Of a stretch of DNA of 64,000 nucleotides, positions 9,563 to 62,258 are shown piece after piece. The stretch covers positions 62,001-126,000 of the IMG/VR virus record IMGVR_UViG_3300012363_000001, one strand, 5' to 3'. The notes beneath the pieces are model-generated. The model ran no database searches. It was not told the origin of the DNA and worked only from the letters and a program-made list of their open reading frames with translations. Both the position numbers and the translations under genes were made by a program. The stretch's first letter is position 1; each line of letters opens with the position of its first letter. Origin of the DNA: a virus.

Positions 9563-9568
9563 CGAAAG

Positions 9569-9641
9569 CTCCACAGGTTGGATTTGAACCAACATCTTCC
9601 TAATTAACAGTTAGGCGCTCTCCCGATTGAGCTACCGTGGA
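9569..9641 (-). tRNA. tRNA-Asn (GTT)
   Basis: 73 bases, cloverleaf checked by hand. Acceptor TCCACGG pairs with CTGTGGA (one G-T), D stem GCTC/GAGC, anticodon stem CCTAA/TTAGG around loop CTGTTAA, giving anticodon GTT. T arm is GTTGG-TTCAAAT-CCAAC. The 3' CCA is not encoded. It is three bases from the next tRNA, so both are probably processed from one transcript. Confidence 0.93.
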
Positions 9642-9644
9642 ATA

Positions 9645-9717
9645 AGCTCGGAGAAGGATTCGAACCCTCGACAGCCGCATTACAGGTGCGGTGTTCTGAC
9701 CGCTGAACTACCCGAGC
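9645..9717 (-). tRNA. tRNA-Thr (TGT)
   Basis: 73 bases. Acceptor GCTCGGG/TCCGAGC, D stem GTTC/GAAC, anticodon stem CCGCA/TGCGG around loop CCTGTAA (anticodon TGT), T arm GAGGG-TTCGAAT-CCTTC with one G-T pair. CCA not encoded. Its 5' 38 bases also carry the last codons and stop of the upstream endonuclease gene. Confidence 0.93.
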
Positions 9718-10246
9718 AAATGAGGAAAGATTTGAGATAGTCGATGGCTTTTTGGAGGAGGTCTGTAGATTCTTTGAAGCCACCGAGAGAAGTATTGCAG
9801 GCATGACAAAGAAGACCTCTGGGCTTGCCGGTTTCATGGTCGTGGTCTACGTGAAAGTAACCATTGGTGGCTGCGCCTCCAGGTTCTTTTGTTCCGCAGA
9901 TGGCACAACCATTACCTTGCTTCGATAAAGTCTCATTGTACCAATCGAGGTCGATGCCATAGTGACTTTTTAGACGGTTGTTCTTTACGTTGTCGGGATG
10001 ATTTTTAATCCATTCTATATTCTTCTCAGGGTGCTCAGCATTGTATTGCTTTTGATACTCCAAAATATCCTCTCGATGCTTCTGGTAATACCTTCTATTG
10101 CTTTCAGCAACCCTCTCTGGATTCTCTAGTCGCCGCTTTGCAGCCCTCTCAGCAGCACGCTTCAAATCTTCTTCCGTTGGAGGATGTCGTTCCCTCCATC
10201 GCCTTTGTCTCTCTGCGTTTTTCTTTTTTCTTTCTTCATCTGCCAT
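9680..10246 (-). CDS. Endonuclease VII-like (zinc/HNH) endonuclease
   Basis: 188 residues. The first 100 residues are a very basic, helical DNA-binding region. Then come GCAICG, FHVDHDHETGKPRGLLC and CNTSLGGF, the zinc-bound endonuclease VII fold in which the DHDH element is catalytic. The ORF runs into the tRNA-Thr gene: the last residues (CSGSSAVRTPHL) are encoded by the tRNA 5' half. It is more AT-rich than its neighbours and sits between a terminator and tRNAs, as expected for a mobile (homing-type) insertion. A TGATATACT box lies ten bases before the ATG. Confidence 0.85.
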   Translation of the reverse strand: MADEERKKKNAERQRRWRERHPPTEEDLKRAAERAAKRRLENPERVAESNRRYYQKHREDILEYQKQYNAEHPEKNIEWIKNHPDNVKNNRLKSHYGIDLDWYNETLSKQGNGCAICGTKEPGGAATNGYFHVDHDHETGKPRGLLCHACNTSLGGFKESTDLLQKAIDYLKSFLICSGSSAVRTPHL

Positions 10247-10340: not shown

Positions 10341-11732
10341 TTAGAATGCGCCTCTGAGATTGTCTACCAGAACATTCTTTCTCGGATGCATAACGGCTAG
10401 CGTTACAAACCTGAAGTGCGCTTCAGGTATACTCAGGTCCGTAACTGCAAGCTTCAGCCTAGAATACGGGGCTAACTCCTTCAAAGCCATCGTATCGCCC
10501 TGAATCAAGAAGCCGGTGACGAAACCAGGATTCTTGTTGAACAGGTCGAGGAAGGTTGTCGTCGCAGCGCCGCTGTTGGACACACGGCCGATGAACCGCG
10601 AGGTCGCATCGTTGCCGCCGGCATTCGAACGGAACACGTTGAAGTACCGAACCACGCCGGAACCCGGAGGAGTGATGGTAACCGTCACGCTGTCGCCAGC
10701 GGCAATGGTCACAGTCACAGAGGTCGACTTGACAGACTCACCACGCTCGTTGACAGCTGAAGCGTAGTAGTTGTAAGTACCTGCCGGAGCACTGGTGCCT
10801 TGAGCAGCGTTGTCCGTCAGCGCGATGGAAGGCGCGCCAGGCGAAGAAGACCGTGCCGTTGCCGGACGGGTCTTGCCAGAGAGGAATCGAGAAGCCTCGA
10901 CGTTGACGGTTCCACCGGACACCCACTGACGCCGAAGGTCGGCGCTGGTGGCGTCCTGAGGAGCCCCGGCGAGGATGATTCGCTCTTTGCCGAACGAAAT
11001 CTTGTTGTAGGCGCTGAGAACCTTCGGGTCGACGACTAACTTGTCCGCCATACCGAAGTTCATCGAGGACCGGACACTGGCGTCTTCGATGTTGTCCTGC
11101 GTCAGGGTACCGCCACCTTGGATGACCACGGTGTCGTCAGACCCAAACTCGCCGAACATCAAGTCCGTTGCGTTCCGCTGACCGTCCGACATCCGGACCT
11201 GGGCATCCAGGCCGAGAATGTTCGGAAGACCGGGGATAGCAAGCATGGAGCCGTCGAAAAGACCCGCGTTCGAGAAGTCCGCCTTACCGCGGAAGCTGTC
11301 GAACTCGATATCGCCGGCAATTTTCTTCGCACCGTCGCTGGCTGCCCGCTCTTCGGCTTTGACGCCGTCGACCGTTGCCACGAGGTTTGCGACCACCGTC
11401 ACACGACGAACATGGCTATAATAGGCCATCGGGACCACGATACGAACGTATTCGCTCATTTCCTCTTGACCGACTGCGCCTTCGTTCTGGGCGGTAGCCC
11501 CGAAGATGCCGTAGCTGAGCTGACGGTCGAATTGGGCCAAGGTACTCTTGACCGGGTCGACTTTCAGCATCTTCTGCAGCTTAATGTGGCTGTCATCGTA
11601 GGTGACGTTGTTCATCACCGGCGAGAGGTCTTCAATCTGCAATGCGGAACCCTGGACCAAAGTCGAGGGAGCTGCATTGTAGTTGCCCGCCTCTAGGGCC
11701 TTCAGCAATGCTTGGGTGACTTCACTTGCCAT
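10341..11732 (-). CDS. Probable major capsid protein with inserted Ig/FN3-like domain
   Basis: 463 residues, preceded by a strong AGGAG site and followed by a strong terminator, as expected for the most abundant virion protein. It lies directly after the scaffold-like gene. The body (residues 1-290 and 405-463) has the composition of an HK97-fold capsid protein, but no named family was recognised. Residues about 295-400 look like an immunoglobulin/fibronectin III insertion (APAGTYNYYASAVNERGES, then YFNVFRSN, TTTFLD), likely exposed on the capsid surface. Residues 11-37 recur in the protease polyprotein (15206-19054) and residues 42-54 recur at the C-terminus of the 21694-22149 product. Confidence 0.8.
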   Translation of the reverse strand: MASEVTQALLKALEAGNYNAAPSTLVQGSALQIEDLSPVMNNVTYDDSHIKLQKMLKVDPVKSTLAQFDRQLSYGIFGATAQNEGAVGQEEMSEYVRIVVPMAYYSHVRRVTVVANLVATVDGVKAEERAASDGAKKIAGDIEFDSFRGKADFSNAGLFDGSMLAIPGLPNILGLDAQVRMSDGQRNATDLMFGEFGSDDTVVIQGGGTLTQDNIEDASVRSSMNFGMADKLVVDPKVLSAYNKISFGKERIILAGAPQDATSADLRRQWVSGGTVNVEASRFLSGKTRPATARSSSPGAPSIALTDNAAQGTSAPAGTYNYYASAVNERGESVKSTSVTVTIAAGDSVTVTITPPGSGVVRYFNVFRSNAGGNDATSRFIGRVSNSGAATTTFLDLFNKNPGFVTGFLIQGDTMALKELAPYSRLKLAVTDLSIPEAHFRFVTLAVMHPRKNVLVDNLRGAF

Positions 11733-14069: not shown

Positions 14070-15206
14070 TCACAAGGCTCCCTCAGAACCCGGAACTAAA
14101 CTATGGACGTGATGCTGAGCCTTGCCCGGCTGATAATTGGCCTGGTGGCTGGCTTCCTTGGCCTGTTGCAGTGCTGCTTCGGCATGCTCCGGAACCATTC
14201 CGAATCCCATTGACACGCTGAGGCCATGAGTACCGCCGACAGGCGGCAGGGCTTCGAGCTTGGACCTCAGGACTCTAGAGAAATGAGCCGCTTCCTGGTG
14301 AGTTGGCACATGGACCACGAATTCATCACCGCCGGTACGAAAGGACTTTGCTTTGGCGCGTCCGATCGCTTCATCGAGAGCTGAACGAATTGCCATCCCG
14401 ATACCCCTGATGGCCTGATTACCGACTTCGTGACCGTGGGTGTCGTTGATGGACTTAAATTGGTTCCCGTCGATGTGGACGTGGATGCCCCGCCGCGGGC
14501 GACTGAGAAAATCTCGGTACGCTTTCAGATTCCCCATGACCGGAACCAAGGTGTCCTTGAATAGATGCCGGGCAATTTCCTCAGCGACGTAAGATTCGAT
14601 GCGGCCATCCTTCTGGGCCTTGCGGAGTTCTTGCATGGCCCTGCCGAGGCCAGACTCGCCAACGCCGTCAAGACTCATTAGCAATGCCTCCATCTTCTGC
14701 ATGGCCTGGTCTTCGTGGTCCTGGGGATAACGGATTGTGGCAACGCCCTGCGCTGCGTTCTGGAGAAGTCTCTGGACTTCCTCGGGGATAAGCTCGTGGC
14801 CATCAAGGAGGACGGTGCCATCTTCATTGACGGTGACGGTCTGAGGCGCTTCCATGCCCTGTCGATGGTACTCGAAAACATTCTCTCCCTTTGGCTGTTC
14901 GACATCTTCGAGTTTACCATGAACCATTGTCAAGTACGGCTGTAGGTCAGGATGTTCGCCCTGCTTCAGCTCTTCGAGACTGATGAGCTGCAGGTATGGT
15001 GAATGCTCCATAGACCAGATTTTCCGCGTCGCCACGGCCGGAGGTTGCCGCTCCAAGTCCCTGAGAAAACCTACATGGTCTTCCAGGACGTCCAGTCTGC
15101 CATCATGTAGGCTGAATTTCCCGACAAGGCTTCGCTCTATCGTGTCACTTCCATCTTTGGGATGCACGGCAAAGACCAGCCAGATGTTCTCATGTTGAAT
15201 GTCCAT
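14070..15206 (-). CDS. GGDEF-domain nucleotidyl cyclase in the head gene cluster
   Basis: 378 residues. Residues 1-200 are an unrecognised N-terminal region; residues about 215-360 are a complete GGDEF domain. It opens DTLVPVMGNLKAYRDF. An ungapped stretch then aligns Asp246, Asn254, Lys251 and Asn263 with PleD Asp327, Asn335, Lys332 and Asp344, and GGDEF falls at 292-296. The guanine-contacting Asp344 is therefore Asn here, and the RxxD inhibitory site is incomplete (RAKA). Diguanylate cyclases make c-di-GMP from two GTP; change at this base-contact position is known to relax specificity. The start overlaps the upstream stop as TAATG, so it is translated with the capsid protease polyprotein. 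Confidence 0.85.
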   Translation of the reverse strand: MDIQHENIWLVFAVHPKDGSDTIERSLVGKFSLHDGRLDVLEDHVGFLRDLERQPPAVATRKIWSMEHSPYLQLISLEELKQGEHPDLQPYLTMVHGKLEDVEQPKGENVFEYHRQGMEAPQTVTVNEDGTVLLDGHELIPEEVQRLLQNAAQGVATIRYPQDHEDQAMQKMEALLMSLDGVGESGLGRAMQELRKAQKDGRIESYVAEEIARHLFKDTLVPVMGNLKAYRDFLSRPRRGIHVHIDGNQFKSINDTHGHEVGNQAIRGIGMAIRSALDEAIGRAKAKSFRTGGDEFVVHVPTHQEAAHFSRVLRSKLEALPPVGGTHGLSVSMGFGMVPEHAEAALQQAKEASHQANYQPGKAQHHVHSLVPGSEGAL

Positions 15207-18200
15207 TAGTAATCCTCGGGACCACGGTAAGCGTGTGAATTCCAGAGTTTCATCCTCGGAAGTCCGTGCTTGAATTTCTCGTCATCGTTTATTTCCTTTG
15301 CCTTCCGGAGTCTTTCCATCGTCTGTTCGATGATATGCTGCGGGGCCTGATGCCTGACCATCTCATGACGGAGAGCATCCTCGTCAATGTCTCTGATGAA
15401 TTGACGGGCGCTATCGTGCACCGGAGCGCCGGTCCAATTCCGGGCAAGTTCGGTAAGCTCGTGAGGCTTCATGCTTTTGAAGTCTCTGCCCAGAAATGAA
15501 TACCGCTCGATATAGTCGGGAATGTTGCCCGGGTCCTCAAAAGCATATCCATGGTCAAGGACCTTCATTCCTTTGGGCGTTACCATCCAGTTGTGGTCAT
15601 GTCGGTCTGGCACTCCCAGGATAAGGTCTTGAGCCATCAACTTGTCGAGTTCACCGCTATCACCCAATTGCTGAAGCATTGCCCGGTGTTGAGGAGAATC
15701 ATGGTAATGCTCGCCGCCTTTGATTTTCTCGATGACTGCAAGTTCGTCGCCGGAATCTGGATGGTGTACCACCGAGACCGTGGGCAGGTAATTGCCGAGC
15801 TTGAAAACGTTGTGGGCTAGGTTATGAAACAATCCCTCGCGCCGTGCTTCGTTGAAAGCTTCGTGAGGCTCAGTCAGGGCCTTGCCACCCCCCGCAGGCG
15901 TATAGGCGCTCCGGTGTATGATAGAACTCCCTTTTACAAACGCCCAAGACCCAGTTGGAGCTTTCCGCCAATGAGACATTTCGCTTTGAGCCGTAGGGGC
16001 TTCCGGTCGTCTGCCTTCCTTGTTGAAATCAAGGCCGTGGACAAGCTTATGTTGTTCCGGGCGCTGATTGTACTCACCGACACTATGACGCTGAGAATCA
16101 ACAATATTTCGCAGCCGGTTCTGCTCATTCTTTTGAGCAAATTCCTGAGCGTAAGCTTTCGCCCGTTCCGGAGTACCCAATACCGCCTTAGCCGGCGACT
16201 TAAGACCCTGTCGGTCAAAAATATTCGGGTCGCCGAAAGCCTTCCGGAGTTCAATGGTCATGGCCTCGAACTTCATCACCGGATTCGGTTTCTTATTTAA
16301 CCGGCGCTTGGCAGCCTCTAACAGCTGCGGTGCCAGGTATCGATAGTAGAGCATCATTGCCGGAACTTCGCCATATTCCTTGACCCAAGAATGCATGGTT
16401 ATGGCAGTCTTCTCGGGCAAAGACGTATCCAGGGATTCGCCTTCGTTCTTGGTCAGATGCGGAGCAATTGCTTCCCAGAAAGGTCGATGGTCGGTGGCCT
16501 CATTATGAGCCAGAGTCGACAGGCCGCGGAATTTTTCGTGAGGAGCGATGGCAACCCAATTCTTCCAAAACGCTGGGAAGATAGCGTCTTCGTCTGATTC
16601 AAATTCCGAGCCCCAACGCGGATGCTCGCGCATGTGCTTGACGGCGTCATGGTGCTTGGCGTAATAGCGGTCGATGGCGTTCAGGACTTCACTGTTGTTC
16701 GGATTCCAGAGCAGGTCCTTGACGTAAGAAATCGTCGGATTGTCTTTGCCCTTCTCCAACCCGAACAGATACCGGCTCATGTGCGTATCCGGGACTATGA
16801 CGTTTCCACCACCCATCATCCCGTACGTATACCTGGCCGTCTTGGGAGCAAGACCAGGAACCACTGGGCCTTGGTATTCGCCAGGGTCTGGAAGACCTTT
16901 ATCGATGTCCCGATTTCGCTTCGAATTCCAGAGCATGGCGCGGTGTTTGTGGTCCATCAGCTCCTGGACGGCGGAGCGGGCATCATGGCGATGGCGATTT
17001 ACCAATTCCACAAGACCTTGGTGGAGAGTATGGTACTTCTCCATGTTCTTGAACTTATTGTTCGCCAACATGAAGCTGCTGATATCCCCGGCCTTGCGGT
17101 TAGTGAGCTTCGAGTCTCTCTTATTCCGGAGTTCTTCTTGGAGCCGTTCGAAATGGCTGCGGCCATGCTCTGGGAACACTGACGGATTGTCTCGACCTAG
17201 CCAATCCTGACGGATGTTCGAAAATTCGGAATGTCGAGGGTCCAGGCCCGTGTGCTTCATCGAATCCACAAGATGACCGTACATCAATTCCTGCACCGGC
17301 ACCGGAGTATTAGGGCTGAGCTGGGAGAAGAGAACTCCGTGCATAATGACTTCCTCGGGGAGTTTCCCTTCTTTCAGAAGCTTATGAACCTGGGCCCAGT
17401 TCTCAGTAGCATAATCGTGAAACTTGCTGAGTTTGGGGTCATTGAGGATATTGTGGAAAGCTTCACCAGCGCCCTTGTTCTCTTTATCCCGAGAGGGGAT
17501 ATACATCGGGAAGCTGCCCTTTGGGGTATGCAGAATTCCGGCTTTCTCGTCGAAATGAGGTTGCTTGATTTGAGGATTCGGCTGCACGGGTTTGCCGCGG
17601 ATGGTGGCTTGCTCAGTCTCGGCCTTGCCACTTTCTACCCATTTCTTAAATGACGGGGCTTGACTGCCACGGCTACCAGGCTTTCGAGGTTCACCTTCCT
17701 TCTTGTAAAGTTTCCATTCCCCAGAATTATGATGCTGAGAAGCAAGTTCTTTGGCATTCTCAAGAGTGGAGGCTTTAGCAGATGACCTTAGAGAGTCGTG
17801 CCCTTTTTTGTAATACTGGACGTCAAAACCTCCCGATTGGTGTGGCAATACGTGGTATTCTCCATGACGGGCTCCGGCAGAATGTACTTTTGTTTCCCCA
17901 GCCCATGATTGCTTTCCGGCAGTCCAGTTCAATGATTCTTTTTCGGCTTTCTGAAGAGTTTCCCCAGGAGCCTCACCATACTTACTTCCGACCCGGGCGT
18001 CAGTCAGCTTCCGGACAAAGTCGATGTCGTCTTGGTGCTTTTCTTCCCACTGAGGCCAATGGTCTTCGCAGAACCAGACCCTGGCCATGCCTTCAGCCCA
18101 CCGGGCCTCGTATCTGGGCGGCTTTGAGCATTCCATGCACTTGGAAAAAGATTCCTGAGCCTTCCTGAGCTTCATCGTGTAATTATCGACGAGGTTCGAG

Positions 18201-19054
18201 AATCGGTCGATGAAATCGTCACTGGCCTCTGGGAGCTTGTGCTTCAGGACCTCACGAAACGGCGTCTTCCGGTCCCAGTCCCTAAGTGCTGCCCGGGCCT
18301 GATTGCGGAGATGAGCCAGGTGCAGACTTCGGTCTTCGACTTGAAGGGCAGCGCCGCCGGTCATAGCCGAAGGAGCCACGTTATAGTTCCCGGCTTCAAG
18401 AGCCTTCCGGACGGATTCAACTTTGGCCAATGCCCGCTGGAGGACATCACCATCCAGAACCGGATTGAACTGTAACTCAGAGCCGCCGAGTCGAGTGTAA
18501 TTAGGGTGCTCGTTAAGCTTCAGGCTGTCATCTGGTTTCTGTTTGAAGCCCTTCGGGGCGTTGGGGTCTTCCACGACGCCGACAACGCAGGATTTGTTAC
18601 AGGGCTTGACCGTCAGAGCCGCCTTCCGACACACGGTCCTGAGCAGTCTCTTGTCTTTGGATTCGAGCGTTGAACCCTCGATGGAAAAGCCGACGATGAT
18701 GGGCTCGTCATTGGCCAGGTAGTCGCGAATCTGAGCGGCCAGAGCTACTGCATTCGGATGACCGGAACCGTCAAAGAGGCGCCCGATGCCGTAAATCAAC
18801 GGCAACCTGACCTTATGATAGAACTCAAGCTCCCGGTCGTTGTCGCAGTCTTTCTCGGAAAATATTTTCTTGGCGTAGATTATTTTCCCAACAATGTCCT
18901 GACTGCCCTGGTCTCCGTTGTGTTCCCAGTTGAGAATACCTTTGCCCTCAACAAGGTCGGAAATGTCTGCGCCTTTGATGTCGAGGATTTCACCGGAGCT
19001 GTCAATGGCCTCGGACGCGAGGACGCCGTCAAGTACCATTCCTGTAGACGCCAT
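15206..19054 (-). CDS. Prohead protease polyprotein with HhH-GPD-like and kinase-like regions
   Basis: 1282 residues after an AGGAG site. (1) Residues 1-165: capsid maturation protease, with His45 in NWEH and Ser124 in GFSIEG. (2) Residues 217-243: copy of the major capsid N-terminal segment (KALEAGNYN, then ALQVED). (3) About 305-335: Cys/His cluster CMEC...CEDHW. (4) About 525-860: helical region with HhH-GPD features, VPGLAPKTARY then VIVPDTH; Lys738 and Asp756 are 18 apart, as are Lys120 and Asp138 of endonuclease III. No iron-sulphur cysteines. (5) About 1030-1235: atypical kinase core, GVPDRHDHNW (Asp1150, Asn1155) then VLDHG (Asp1167), as in HipA/PI3-kinase-like enzymes. Probably self-processed, with downstream parts as capsid cargo; this is inference. 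Confidence 0.75.
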   Translation of the reverse strand: MASTGMVLDGVLASEAIDSSGEILDIKGADISDLVEGKGILNWEHNGDQGSQDIVGKIIYAKKIFSEKDCDNDRELEFYHKVRLPLIYGIGRLFDGSGHPNAVALAAQIRDYLANDEPIIVGFSIEGSTLESKDKRLLRTVCRKAALTVKPCNKSCVVGVVEDPNAPKGFKQKPDDSLKLNEHPNYTRLGGSELQFNPVLDGDVLQRALAKVESVRKALEAGNYNVAPSAMTGGAALQVEDRSLHLAHLRNQARAALRDWDRKTPFREVLKHKLPEASDDFIDRFSNLVDNYTMKLRKAQESFSKCMECSKPPRYEARWAEGMARVWFCEDHWPQWEEKHQDDIDFVRKLTDARVGSKYGEAPGETLQKAEKESLNWTAGKQSWAGETKVHSAGARHGEYHVLPHQSGGFDVQYYKKGHDSLRSSAKASTLENAKELASQHHNSGEWKLYKKEGEPRKPGSRGSQAPSFKKWVESGKAETEQATIRGKPVQPNPQIKQPHFDEKAGILHTPKGSFPMYIPSRDKENKGAGEAFHNILNDPKLSKFHDYATENWAQVHKLLKEGKLPEEVIMHGVLFSQLSPNTPVPVQELMYGHLVDSMKHTGLDPRHSEFSNIRQDWLGRDNPSVFPEHGRSHFERLQEELRNKRDSKLTNRKAGDISSFMLANNKFKNMEKYHTLHQGLVELVNRHRHDARSAVQELMDHKHRAMLWNSKRNRDIDKGLPDPGEYQGPVVPGLAPKTARYTYGMMGGGNVIVPDTHMSRYLFGLEKGKDNPTISYVKDLLWNPNNSEVLNAIDRYYAKHHDAVKHMREHPRWGSEFESDEDAIFPAFWKNWVAIAPHEKFRGLSTLAHNEATDHRPFWEAIAPHLTKNEGESLDTSLPEKTAITMHSWVKEYGEVPAMMLYYRYLAPQLLEAAKRRLNKKPNPVMKFEAMTIELRKAFGDPNIFDRQGLKSPAKAVLGTPERAKAYAQEFAQKNEQNRLRNIVDSQRHSVGEYNQRPEQHKLVHGLDFNKEGRRPEAPTAQSEMSHWRKAPTGSWAFVKGSSIIHRSAYTPAGGGKALTEPHEAFNEARREGLFHNLAHNVFKLGNYLPTVSVVHHPDSGDELAVIEKIKGGEHYHDSPQHRAMLQQLGDSGELDKLMAQDLILGVPDRHDHNWMVTPKGMKVLDHGYAFEDPGNIPDYIERYSFLGRDFKSMKPHELTELARNWTGAPVHDSARQFIRDIDEDALRHEMVRHQAPQHIIEQTMERLRKAKEINDDEKFKHGLPRMKLWNSHAYRGPEDY

Positions 19055-22196: not shown

Positions 22197-22346
22197 ATGG
22201 CAAATGTGAAAAGCGTAGTTGTCGAAAACGGCACGGTGGTTATTTACACGACGTCGGGAGTTGTTACCGTGGACCCCCAGAAACGAAACGGGTATCTAGT
22301 GGCATACAACTCTAACAAGGGAACTCAGACTAAGATAATCAGCTAG
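22197..22346 (+). CDS. Small beta-rich protein (49 aa)
   Basis: ATG at 22197 reads MANVKSVVVENGTVVIYT; beta strands alternate with charged turns and there is no cysteine. GAAAGAA lies upstream. Its TAG stop at 22344-22346 overlaps the TAG of the convergent MuF gene in the palindrome AGCTAGCT. Part of the second rightward cassette. Function unknown. Confidence 0.55.
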   Translation: MANVKSVVVENGTVVIYTTSGVVTVDPQKRNGYLVAYNSNKGTQTKIIS

Positions 22347-23098
22347 CTGTTCTGTTTGGCGTACTCATCATGGCCTGGGCCTTTGTATTCGACCATGCCA
22401 TCCTTGTTGAACCCGTAGCCAGGCATAAGAGTCGTAAGCACGCAGCGACAAAGTGGATGCAATCCCCCGACCTTCGGGTCATCTTCCCCTGGCTTGTGGT
22501 ACCCGTGGCCGACTTCGGAAAGTTTATAGACTCGGGGAGTACCGCCAGCATTTAAGTGAAGACGCCGACACTCAGGGCAGAGAGAAATGTCCCGGACCAC
22601 GACAAAAAATACGTTTGGGTCTTCGACTCCCGCGGCAGCATTTACCCGCACGATACCATCCATGATGCTCAGGTTTCGAGCCTGGGTGGTCTCAGTCTGA
22701 ATGATTCGGCTGACATCGTTCGTGACTTCGCCCCAGAGCTTTGATAGCTGGCCCCCGAGCACCGTCTCAACGTTCGCCGGTACACCCTGATGCGCGGCCC
22801 CGGTAATGAACGACTGGACCCCGTGGACTATCTTGGCCTTGGCCCGGAGCTTGCTCGCATCCAGGTAGTTGCCGGCAATTTTCAGGACTGTATTCAGGAC
22901 ATCTTCGCTTGGCTTCACGCCTTCTTCGGCCGCAGCCGCTTCGAAGACCCCAGGCAAGGTAAGTTCATGAAGGAAGCCAACAGCCAAGGTTTTGCCTCCG
23001 GCATAACGACCCAGAAGCCGGGTCTTGGCCCGGTTGAAGATTTCATCGACAGCATCTTCTATGATTTTGACCGCACCGGGAGAAAGCCTAGCCTTCAT
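22343..23098 (-). CDS. MuF-like minor head protein
   Basis: 251 residues. The C-terminal half has the phage Mu gpF head-morphogenesis signature: VRDISLCPECRRLH (Cys174, Cys177) and GLHPLCRCVLTTL (His214, Cys217, Cys219), a zinc-like knot. The N-terminal half is helical and probably contacts the portal. It lies directly after the portal gene, with GAGGA overlapping the portal stop. These proteins enter the procapsid in few copies and can be ejected with DNA. Confidence 0.88.
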   Translation of the reverse strand: MKARLSPGAVKIIEDAVDEIFNRAKTRLLGRYAGGKTLAVGFLHELTLPGVFEAAAAEEGVKPSEDVLNTVLKIAGNYLDASKLRAKAKIVHGVQSFITGAAHQGVPANVETVLGGQLSKLWGEVTNDVSRIIQTETTQARNLSIMDGIVRVNAAAGVEDPNVFFVVVRDISLCPECRRLHLNAGGTPRVYKLSEVGHGYHKPGEDDPKVGGLHPLCRCVLTTLMPGYGFNKDGMVEYKGPGHDEYAKQNS

Positions 23099-23100
23099 GG

Positions 23101-25311
23101 CTATTTCCTCGGCAGATGTTTCAGCGCGATATCGGTGATTTCCTTCAGCGTGTCCTGGCTATCTTTTTCCCAGGCTTCAAGGGCGCTGGTCACCAGCTTC
23201 CGTTGTTGAGCTATCAGGCGTCGTTTGGAAGGAGGCAATTGGTTTTCGCTCTTGCTAAGGAGTCCAATCATTTGGTCGATGGACCGAGTCAGGTCCTGAC
23301 CTTGGTCACCAGCAGATTGGTCAGAGCCGCCTTGTTCGCCCTGTTCCTTGACCTGCTCGCGGTCTGCTCCATGCTGCTCACGACTCTTCGCCGGTCCACC
23401 ATCACCACCACTATCCGAAGGGGGGCCTTCTTGTCCAGGCAGTGGCTGACCTTGAGCTGCGGCTTGCTTAGCCTGCTCGGCTTGCTGTTGCAGCTGCTGT
23501 TGCTGCATGAGATTCTGAACCTGCGTGAAATAGAACGGGTCCCGGAGATACGCATAGAGAGGGTCTTTGCTGGCGCCTGGGACTTCAAAAAATTCCTCCA
23601 TGATGACGCCCACGGGCACATACTTGTCAAGGACAGCCTGCCATTGAGGATTGAGGATAAACTTGCCGCCAAATTTCTTCCCAAGCGGCTTCTTCTCGAC
23701 GCGCTCCAGAACATCGTCCATGGTCATGTGAATGCCCATGTCCTGCTGGAGTCTAATGGCTTCCTTTTCGGCAGTATCTACGTCGAGGCCAATGAACTTG
23801 ATGGTACAAATCTTCGCCAGTTCCTCGTCAATCAGCGGGAAGATTCGGCTGTTAATAAAGTTCTGGAACTGGCCCACTAGGGGTCTGATGCCAACGTCAC
23901 GGTGGGCTTCGAGCTTGTATTCGTTATTACTTTCTGAGAGAGCCTGATTGTTGGTACCACGACTCAGGTGTGCGTAGCCCGGGAGTTCCTCAGGACTCAT
24001 CTGGAACGCAGAGAGAATAACCCGGGCATTCGTATCAGAAAGATACTGGAATTCCATGTCGCGGCTACTGTTGTCGATTGGATACCAGCCAATCTCATCA
24101 TCGCTGCCGACGCCAAAGATGGGCATACGCCATGCGTTGGCAACACTGTTGATGCTGGCGTTGAACTGCTGCCGAATCTTGGAGATAACTCCCTCGTCGA
24201 CGTCATCCGACTTGATGACAATCATGCCACGGGCTGCGCGACCGGATTGGAAATAGAGCTTATTATGGTTCGTGATATTGATATGGGTCGTGACCGCAGC
24301 AATCATCGTGTCGATTGGCGTCAACGGATACCCGTCAAGTTCAACGTCAGAGACCGGATAGAAGTTGTGGACTAAGCATTCATCAGGAGTGAAAGCCTGC
24401 ACCGGACGACCGTGAACAACTTGGACCCAGGCGTATTCGTCATTCGCGAACTTCTCCGGCTCCAGTTTTCGGTTCTTGAGTTGCTCCAACAGCTTTCGAG
24501 CTTCTTGGCGGACGCTTTCCACTGCTTCCCTTTGGGGCGAAGCTTGGTAGATAGTACCGGCGTCGATGGGCCTGAAAGAATGGAATTCCCTATTACCATC
24601 CATGGTCTTCTTGAAAATGATTTCCGTTGCCGTCCGACCGAAGATGACCGCATTGCGGGCAGAGATGAACAGAAACTGATTGAAGGTCAGGGCCTCTTTG
24701 TCAGACCAGCCGGTGGTGCTACCGCAATTCAGGAGCCTCAATTCGGCCTTACGAATCTTCTCCTGGAGTTTTTTCTTCTCTTCCTTGTCCAACTTCTCCA
24801 TATACCCGGGCTCAGCTTCAATCTTGAATCCGGTTCCGAAGCGGTCTGGCTGTGGACGTCCGAAGACAGCTACCTGGTTGCAGCGGGCGTTGGCAATAGA
24901 CGCCACAAGGTCGTCTTGGATACTGATTCGCTTCAGGATGTCATCGGGCAGGAGCCGAAGCTTTACCCGGTAGACACTCTGGTAAATGTTGTGTTGGCTG
25001 GGGTCTGTCTCAAAGGCCAACCGCTCAATGCTGACCTTGCCTGGTCCGTTGAGGACGTTAAGAACCGACTTCACAAGAGGACTGGAACTTGCTACTTTCT
25101 TATTCAGTTCCTCTTCGAGCTTCTTAAATTCCGCTGCCTCCAGGACGTTGAGGGTATCGTCAAAGGAAGGGTAATTCATCATCATCTGGATGTTGCCGCT
25201 GCCCTTTTTTACAGACTTAGCCACCTTGGTCGGCCGATTGCTGACAACAGTCTCGATGAGGCTTTTAGCGAACGGTGAGAGGTCCGCTTCTATGGAAGTC
25301 TTTTTGGCCAT
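23101..25311 (-). CDS. Portal protein
   Basis: 736 residues, a large portal of the type in big myo- and siphoviruses. Portal-like features: ISARNAVIFGRTATEII, PLTPIDTMIAAVTTHI in the stem/wing region, LSDTNARVILSAFQM (about 423-437), then GYAHLSRGTNNQA and the crown helices. About residues 595-680 are a Gln/Gly/Ser-rich linker, followed by a helical tail (EITDIALKHLPRK). It lies between a virion gene and MuF in the standard terminase-portal-MuF order. A fragment is duplicated in 6169-6453. Confidence 0.85.
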   Translation of the reverse strand: MAKKTSIEADLSPFAKSLIETVVSNRPTKVAKSVKKGSGNIQMMMNYPSFDDTLNVLEAAEFKKLEEELNKKVASSSPLVKSVLNVLNGPGKVSIERLAFETDPSQHNIYQSVYRVKLRLLPDDILKRISIQDDLVASIANARCNQVAVFGRPQPDRFGTGFKIEAEPGYMEKLDKEEKKKLQEKIRKAELRLLNCGSTTGWSDKEALTFNQFLFISARNAVIFGRTATEIIFKKTMDGNREFHSFRPIDAGTIYQASPQREAVESVRQEARKLLEQLKNRKLEPEKFANDEYAWVQVVHGRPVQAFTPDECLVHNFYPVSDVELDGYPLTPIDTMIAAVTTHINITNHNKLYFQSGRAARGMIVIKSDDVDEGVISKIRQQFNASINSVANAWRMPIFGVGSDDEIGWYPIDNSSRDMEFQYLSDTNARVILSAFQMSPEELPGYAHLSRGTNNQALSESNNEYKLEAHRDVGIRPLVGQFQNFINSRIFPLIDEELAKICTIKFIGLDVDTAEKEAIRLQQDMGIHMTMDDVLERVEKKPLGKKFGGKFILNPQWQAVLDKYVPVGVIMEEFFEVPGASKDPLYAYLRDPFYFTQVQNLMQQQQLQQQAEQAKQAAAQGQPLPGQEGPPSDSGGDGGPAKSREQHGADREQVKEQGEQGGSDQSAGDQGQDLTRSIDQMIGLLSKSENQLPPSKRRLIAQQRKLVTSALEAWEKDSQDTLKEITDIALKHLPRK

Positions 25312-61832: not shown

Positions 61833-62258
61833 GTGAACAAACTCTGGCTAGATGACGTTCGCATAGCACCAGCTGGCTGGATTTGGGCTCATAGTGTTGA
61901 TGAGGCCAAGAAACTTATGTCCTCGGGTGTGAGGTTCGATGAAATGAGCCTCGACCACGACATGGGCCTCGGGCCACCTTGTTCTGAGTGTGCGAACCGT
62001 GGTTGCTATCAGGACTGCAAATGCCATTGTCACGACAATCTTCCGACCGGTTATGACTTCGTGAAGTGGATGGGCGAGAACAATCTCTGGCCACCCAAGC
62101 GTCCCAACGTTCACAGTATGAACCCTGCCGGCAAACAGAACATGGATGAATATATCAACCGATACGGCCCGTATGGTGGAGTTTCGACGAACCCGACGCC
62201 CAAGACCCAGGCCGATATCGCAGACCGCCAGGAATTGATTGACGAGGGAAAGTCGTGA
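61833..62258 (+). CDS. Cyclic-phosphate-processing receiver (cpREC) domain protein
   Basis: 141 residues. LWLDDVRIAPAGWIWA at the start, then MSLDHDMG and GYDFVKWM, and HSMNPAG, are the signature of the cyclic-phosphate-processing receiver-like family, predicted to act on cyclic phosphate ends of RNA. Between the second and third motifs is a zinc-like insert (CSEC...CYQDCKCHCHD, about residues 49-68). GTG start. With the HAD_SAK-like gene at 9064 it adds an RNA end-processing theme. Confidence 0.75.
   Translation: MNKLWLDDVRIAPAGWIWAHSVDEAKKLMSSGVRFDEMSLDHDMGLGPPCSECANRGCYQDCKCHCHDNLPTGYDFVKWMGENNLWPPKRPNVHSMNPAGKQNMDEYINRYGPYGGVSTNPTPKTQADIADRQELIDEGKS

Follow-up and report, generated by a model that had tools for sequence, protein, structure and literature searches.

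In a stretch of viral DNA of 64,000 nucleotides (positions 62,001 to 126,000 of the IMG/VR record IMGVR_UViG_3300012363_000001, which is 164,871 bases long), hereafter the window, one gene encodes a protein in which an N-terminal prohead (head maturation) protease is followed by a copy of the N-terminal segment of the major capsid protein (MCP), a predicted HhH-GPD (helix-hairpin-helix) DNA glycosylase domain and a kinase domain of the PI3K/PI4K/HipA type (Table 1). We believe, with slightly better than even confidence, that this fusion is a head-loaded "polyvalent" carrier, in which the protease and the capsid-like tag would bring enzymes into the prohead. A wider proposal, put forward more tentatively, at a little below even chances, is that large phages of a broad group use the protease and the mimic of the MCP N-terminus to load the head with exchangeable enzymes (a base-excision-type glycosylase, PI3K-like kinase, diguanylate cyclase), which are cut loose for delivery with the DNA wherever the glutamate at the cleavage site is kept.

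The 1282-residue frame on the minus strand at 15206-19054, proposed in a first-pass annotation made from the letters of the window, is real. Specifically, the opposite (plus) strand of this interval is riddled with stop codons, and homologous fusions are present in 23 other genomes or contigs, making 24 with our own, which rules out an artefact of gene annotation. An assembly artefact is very unlikely, because the same architecture was found in independent contigs. In addition, all the residues singled out in that annotation (His45, Ser124, Lys738, Asp756, DRHDHN at 1150-1155 and LDHG at 1166-1169) lie at the positions it gave.

Concerning the N-terminal region, the family phrog_1028 ("head maturation protease") matches 17 of the 23 relatives, with a best E-value of 2.4e-8, and the SPO1 prohead protease (gp3.2) matches residues 7-204 of the fusion protein. 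His45, His99 and Ser124 are invariant in an alignment of 23 sequences, in agreement with the maturation protease suggested earlier on the basis of His45 and Ser124; by analogy with assemblin, we assume that His99 may be the third catalytic residue. The Cys/His cluster of the first-pass annotation also exists (C306, C309, C329 and H332), though it is absent from the four relatives in the full-length alignment. The weak DUF2188-like stretch is likewise absent from these four relatives.

Residues 212-244 are 58% identical to the N-terminus of the phage's own MCP (E 2.6e-6, in a search within its own genome), so that the copy of the capsid segment recognised before is substantiated; the aligned letters read KALEAGNYNAAPSTLVQGSALQIED in the capsid protein and KALEAGNYNVAPSAMTGGAALQVED in the fusion protein. 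This MCP-like segment is kept in 22 of the 24 fusion proteins, being missing from L039, cut short in L040 and degenerate in L015. The residue preceding AG (P1) is Glu in all nine MCPs examined, within ALE or AME (consensus A-[LM]-E|AG), and it is also Glu in ten fusion proteins, namely our own and those of Myxococcus phage Mx1, L002, L004, L009, L010, L011, L016, L023 and L045. The remaining fusion proteins with the segment have Ser (three), Thr (eight) or Ala (one) at P1. Because 12 of the 22 segment-bearing fusion proteins no longer have the P1 Glu, release at the copied site cannot be general, and the explanation of the segment as simply an autocleavage site is weakened. The segment is conserved even where the Glu is lost, which makes a common role in tethering or targeting more likely than one in cleavage alone.

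In phage T4, the prohead protease cuts after L/I-X-E and removes the capsid targeting sequence, and targeting is separable from processing, as an altered P1 residue can block processing yet still permit targeting; the T4 protein Alt is packaged, cut and ejected (PMC9026906). The SPN3US protease cuts after A-X-E and also cleaves itself (PMC10052503). From the P1 pattern, taken together with the T4 and SPN3US cleavage rules and the separable targeting of T4, we infer that the copied segment would serve as an address or tether and, where the Glu is kept, also as a release site.

The glycosylase domain was modelled over residues 470-935, with 16 relatives (predicted local distance difference test, pLDDT, 80.4; predicted template modelling score, pTM, 0.80). 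The eight best structural matches of the model were all HhH-GPD glycosylases, with Z-scores from 13.9 to 6.0. The best was M. jannaschii OGG2 (3knt), with a root-mean-square deviation of 3.2 over 204 of 206 residues and a Z-score of 13.9, a range (Z 13-14) that a chance arrangement of helical models can also give; T. maritima OGG2 (3n0u; 13.6), human OGG1 (9.1), Deinococcus endonuclease III (7.1) and AGOG (6.0) were among the others, and the rows below them were unrelated helical proteins with Z-scores of 5.3 or less. Because helical models can score by chance, and because Foldseek alone placed OGG2 at rank 32, without significance, an independent HHalign test was made, in which the alignment of the relatives was compared, in one comparison, with 17 HhH-GPD proteins from bacterial genomes. 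This gave an E-value of 4.2e-7 and a probability of 92.7%, with PGLAPKTA placed on PGVGYKTA and both catalytic residues aligned; the controls (reversed, column-shuffled, kinase and protease alignments) gave E-values of 0.09 or more. The second structural alignment and the profile comparison were decisive for the HhH-GPD assignment.

Lys738 and Asp756 are invariant (16/16) and stand 18 residues apart, within the motif PG-x-x-x-K...V-P-D-[TR]-H. Sequence-only searches of PDB, Pfam and NCBIfam returned nothing useful for this domain; hmmscan matched it to neither PF00730 nor PF22175, and the PF22175 profile was also without a match in the genome. As the domain is too divergent for plain profiles, with no curated Pfam match, it is assigned to the superfamily only. 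Membership of the HhH-GPD DNA glycosylase superfamily, previously guessed from motifs, is thus supported by the predicted structure and the profile comparison. By fold similarity only, the closest glycosylase to the modelled domain is of the OGG2 type (8-oxoguanine), and the predicted enzyme probably has apurinic/apyrimidinic lyase ability, because the catalytic Lys is kept. With OGG2 the viral domain shares the fold over nearly the whole enzyme, the HhH-GPD motif and the Lys/Asp spacing; it differs in having no detectable plain sequence similarity, large insertions, no Pfam HhH family by hmmscan, and a phage protease to which it is fused. The likeness to endonuclease III previously put forward holds for the 18-residue spacing and for the fold, whereas OGG2 is the closer enzyme (Z 13.9 versus 7.1).

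In two relatives, inteins (PF14890) interrupt the HhH-GPD motif FSQLSPNTPVPMQELMYGHLVDSM, which is the most conserved motif of the domain: there are two in L015 (7932-12272) and one in L016 (7932-12593). Inteins generally favour the best-conserved stretch of a protein with an important role. In L003, inteins are also present in the terminase and MuF-like genes.

As regards the kinase, the model covers residues 1000-1282 and was built with 15 relatives (pLDDT 81.9, pTM 0.84). Foldseek matched the model to PI4KII (8a5x; E 5.6e-5), and a second structural comparison gave Z-scores of 17.1 for PI4KII, 14.1 for CtkA, 12.5 for Fam20C and about 11 for HipT/HipA. The Pfam family PI3_PI4_kinase (PF00454) matches 14 of 15 relatives, with a best value of 6.3e-13; our own protein scores 25.3 bits against a cut-off of 27.1, and the relative L045 exceeds it with 42.7 bits. 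The protein keeps the catalytic Lys (K1041), Asp (D1150) and Asn (N1155) and the metal-binding Asp (D1167). It therefore resembles PI4KII, CtkA, HipA/HipT and Fam20C in its fold and catalytic residues (K, D, N, D), but its best identity to solved structures is only about 15%. This family includes both lipid and protein kinases. The HipA/PI3K-like core of the first-pass annotation accordingly stands, and structure prediction, the check that it had proposed, recovered both the HhH-GPD and the kinase folds.

Across the 24 fusions the N-terminal protease is constant, while the C-terminal part is variable. HhH and kinase domains occur together in our own protein, Mx1, L002, L003, L004, L009, L010, L012 (where the contig ends in the kinase), L016, L030, L032 and L049; HhH is joined to a GGDEF domain in one frame in L013, L023, L025, L028 and L031; it occurs with neither kinase nor GGDEF in frame in L011, L014 (next gene GGDEF) and L015 (kinase in a separate gene); and the kinase is found without HhH in L039, L040, L045 and L046. 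The closest named relative is WNM70322.1 of the cultured phage Mx1, annotated as "putative prohead protease" only, a direct homologue with 43% identity and the same architecture, which differs from ours in having no zinc-like and DUF2188-like inserts.

Both enzyme domains are under strong purifying selection: between L009 and L010, the ratio of nonsynonymous to synonymous divergence (dN/dS) is 0.042 for the protease, 0.054 for HhH and 0.016 for the kinase, and 0.18-0.27 for the linkers. The synonymous divergence (dS) between L004 and L009 is 0.32 for the protease but climbs to 0.92 for HhH and 1.37 for the kinase, a sign that near relatives have swapped their C-terminal modules by recombination. 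Searches of cellular genomes found none with the HhH module, and those for the kinase yielded a single phage-like contig, within a Saccharibacteria metagenome-assembled genome (MAG).

Some relatives show further peculiarities. A separate gene of L015 (12254-14287) encodes a degenerate second HhH-like copy, with the catalytic Lys lost, followed by the kinase. L032 (9261-9800) has an extra insert of ~120 residues between HhH and kinase (YHITHHNRLTGIASRGLVP), ADP-ribosyltransferase (ART)-like by eye; an ART-like domain has no Pfam support in this insert and is not claimed. L049 (98-1141), a phage contig binned into a Saccharibacteria MAG, encodes a MuF-like protein with a C-terminal extension (VVADPNHPYFAHYVKSGHA...).

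The same genome encodes, outside the window (L047:1651-6519, minus strand; about G000:C1:41150-46018), a second polyvalent protein of 1622 residues. It contains a NUDIX domain, two GNAT domains and a C-terminal PI3K-like kinase (E 1.6e-8) detectably related to that of the fusion protein; a possible HEXXH-type peptidase motif (HESQH) is also visible. In Mx1, a 1479-residue ART-PolyVal/NUDIX/GNAT protein, ART-PolyVal being a family named for polyvalent proteins, lies beside a separate kinase.

Polyvalent proteins have several domains, are encoded by phages and conjugative elements, and are believed to accompany the DNA on its delivery (Iyer et al. 2017, PMC5512222). Like them, the fusion combines unrelated enzymes (protease, HhH-GPD, kinase) in one phage protein encoded among head genes; such proteins are expected to be packaged, and GGDEF, GNAT, NUDIX, ART and kinase are partners of that class (PMC5512222). 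In that survey, assemblin-like peptidases are rare, always C-terminal and assumed to process the protein during assembly (PMC5512222), whereas here the peptidase is N-terminal in all 24 proteins, the C-terminal position being a reported tendency and not a definition. The kinase also belongs to a different family from the polyvalent-type kinase, which has no C-terminal subdomain: ours is of the PI3K/HipA type, with C-terminal lobe helices in the model. The built-in copy of the MCP N-terminus is a further difference, and a term search of the text of PMC5512222 showed no HhH-GPD glycosylase.

The T4 Alt and internal proteins similarly carry a short sequence that ends in a site for the prohead protease (gp21), with targeting separable from processing (PMC9026906), but in the present fusion the cargo is joined to the protease itself, through a tag similar to the N-terminus of the MCP. 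SPN3US gp245 and phiKZ gp175 cleave after A-X-E, cleave themselves and remove the MCP propeptide, and enzyme domains fused downstream of them are not described (PMC10052503). No description of a protease-kinase fusion was found in the literature searched, although one may exist elsewhere. The domains are known singly; relative to that literature, their combination and order are new.

The interpretation given in the first-pass annotation is, as a whole, partly supported: beyond the two folds, its idea that the enzymes enter the head, are cleaved off there and leave it by ejection would be in keeping with the head gene cluster, the MCP-like cleavage site, the interchangeable C-terminal modules, the second polyvalent protein and the GGDEF fusions. 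In the course that we propose, the N-terminal protease would assemble inside the prohead, where it is needed anyway, and the MCP-like segment would probably bind the same prohead partners (shell or core) as the MCP N-terminus, acting as a capsid address tag. The downstream glycosylase and kinase would ride along into the prohead. At maturation, KALE|AG would let the protease release residues 221-1282 in this phage, and the released enzymes would be retained in the head and then pass, along with the DNA, into the next host. In that cell, damaged or modified bases may be the targets of the glycosylase, and the kinase may phosphorylate a host protein or lipid.

Several points weigh against this carrier reading. 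Only 10 of the 22 segment-bearing fusion proteins retain the P1 Glu, compared to all nine MCPs; DRHxxN is replaced by DRNDGN in Mx1, and there is also variation near the catalytic loop in L016 and L030; and the enzymes could do their work while the head assembles, or fail to survive maturation. If they acted during assembly, the C-terminal domains would work in the producing cell, in repair or quality control of the DNA to be packaged or in phosphorylating head or host proteins to regulate maturation, and the fusion would only co-localise them with the prohead, with nothing being ejected. In favour of this, a co-assembled fusion could dispense with ejection, the DNA on which HhH-GPD enzymes act comes into the same compartment, and release is not general, many relatives being without the consensus P1 Glu. 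We consider this explanation rather unlikely, given that relatives may have GGDEF in place of the kinase, or neither of them, which does not look like a conserved function in assembly, and that a related kinase sits in a typical polyvalent protein of the same genome.

Destruction at maturation would make the downstream part mainly an internal core or scaffold, shredded like T4 gp22, with its folds as relics. Protease-scaffold fusions do exist in herpesviruses and some phages, but a separate candidate scaffold gene lies downstream, lessening the need for one, little or no variation is seen in the catalytic Lys/Asp pair and the kinase residues among sequences down to about 24-37% identity, and the dN/dS of the enzyme domains is as low as that of the protease, with the interdomain linkers evolving much faster; this makes the scaffold improbable. 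Quite improbable, too, is that the HhH-GPD domain uses its fold to hypermodify DNA rather than to remove bases, as does the 5-PmdU glycinyltransferase of phage PaMx11. That enzyme (8z2n) does appear in the structural list, at Z 4.2, and phages employ the fold for base modification; the OGG2 enzymes, however, score 13.9 and 13.6 with nearly full coverage, the K-x17-D pattern of lyase-type glycosylases is kept, and the domain is tied to a head protease rather than to a modification gene cluster.

If the carrier reading is true, the enzyme that triggers shell maturation also determines which proteins are carried into the host, and the cargo changes when the end of a single gene is exchanged. The known head-borne enzymes would be joined by a base-excision-type glycosylase and a PI3K-like kinase, and Mx1, as a cultured phage, would offer a natural capsid-loading tag for study. 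Many proteins now annotated as "hypothetical" or "prohead protease" would become open to testing.

Table 1. Features of the fusion gene and its neighbours, in window coordinates.
Feature	Position	Strand	Residues	Evidence or remarks
Whole fusion gene	15206-19054	minus	1282 aa	ATG start; prohead protease fusion
Prohead (head maturation) protease domain	18545-19054	minus	1-170	phrog_1028, SPO1 gp3.2, alignment
Copy of MCP N-terminal segment	18323-18421	minus	212-244	putative cleavage site KALE|AG, residues 217-222
Conserved segment after capsid copy (DWDRKTPFREVLKHKLPEASDDFIDRF...)	18155-18322	minus	245-300	alignment of relatives
Cys/His cluster, possible zinc knuckle	18053-18142	minus		C306-x2-C309 ... 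C329-x2-H332
DUF2188-like stretch	17690-17857	minus	400-455	weak, E 0.008, below Pfam cut-off
HhH-GPD (OGG2-like) domain, predicted	16265-17605	minus	484-930	Lys738, Asp756; structure model, HHalign, invariant Lys/Asp
PI3K/PI4K/HipA-type kinase domain	15245-16057	minus	1000-1270	Lys1041, Glu1073, Asp1150, Asn1155, Asp1167
GGDEF protein	14070-15206	minus		PF00990, E 1.5e-15
MCP	10341-11732	minus		phrog_752, E 9e-49; donor of copied segment (MASEVTQALLKALE|AGNYNAAPSTLVQGSALQIED)
MuF-like protein	22343-23098			
Portal gene	23101-25311			

In the head gene cluster, the fusion gene is flanked by the MuF-like and portal genes on one side and by the MCP gene on the other. The GGDEF protein is encoded directly after the protease fusion and has an intact GGDEF motif; its start codon shares one base with the stop codon of the fusion gene (TAATG), and it is a candidate head-borne diguanylate cyclase. 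Immediately after the capsid gene lies an Endonuclease VII gene (9680-10246, minus strand), which adjoins two tRNA genes (Asn and Thr; 9568-9717).

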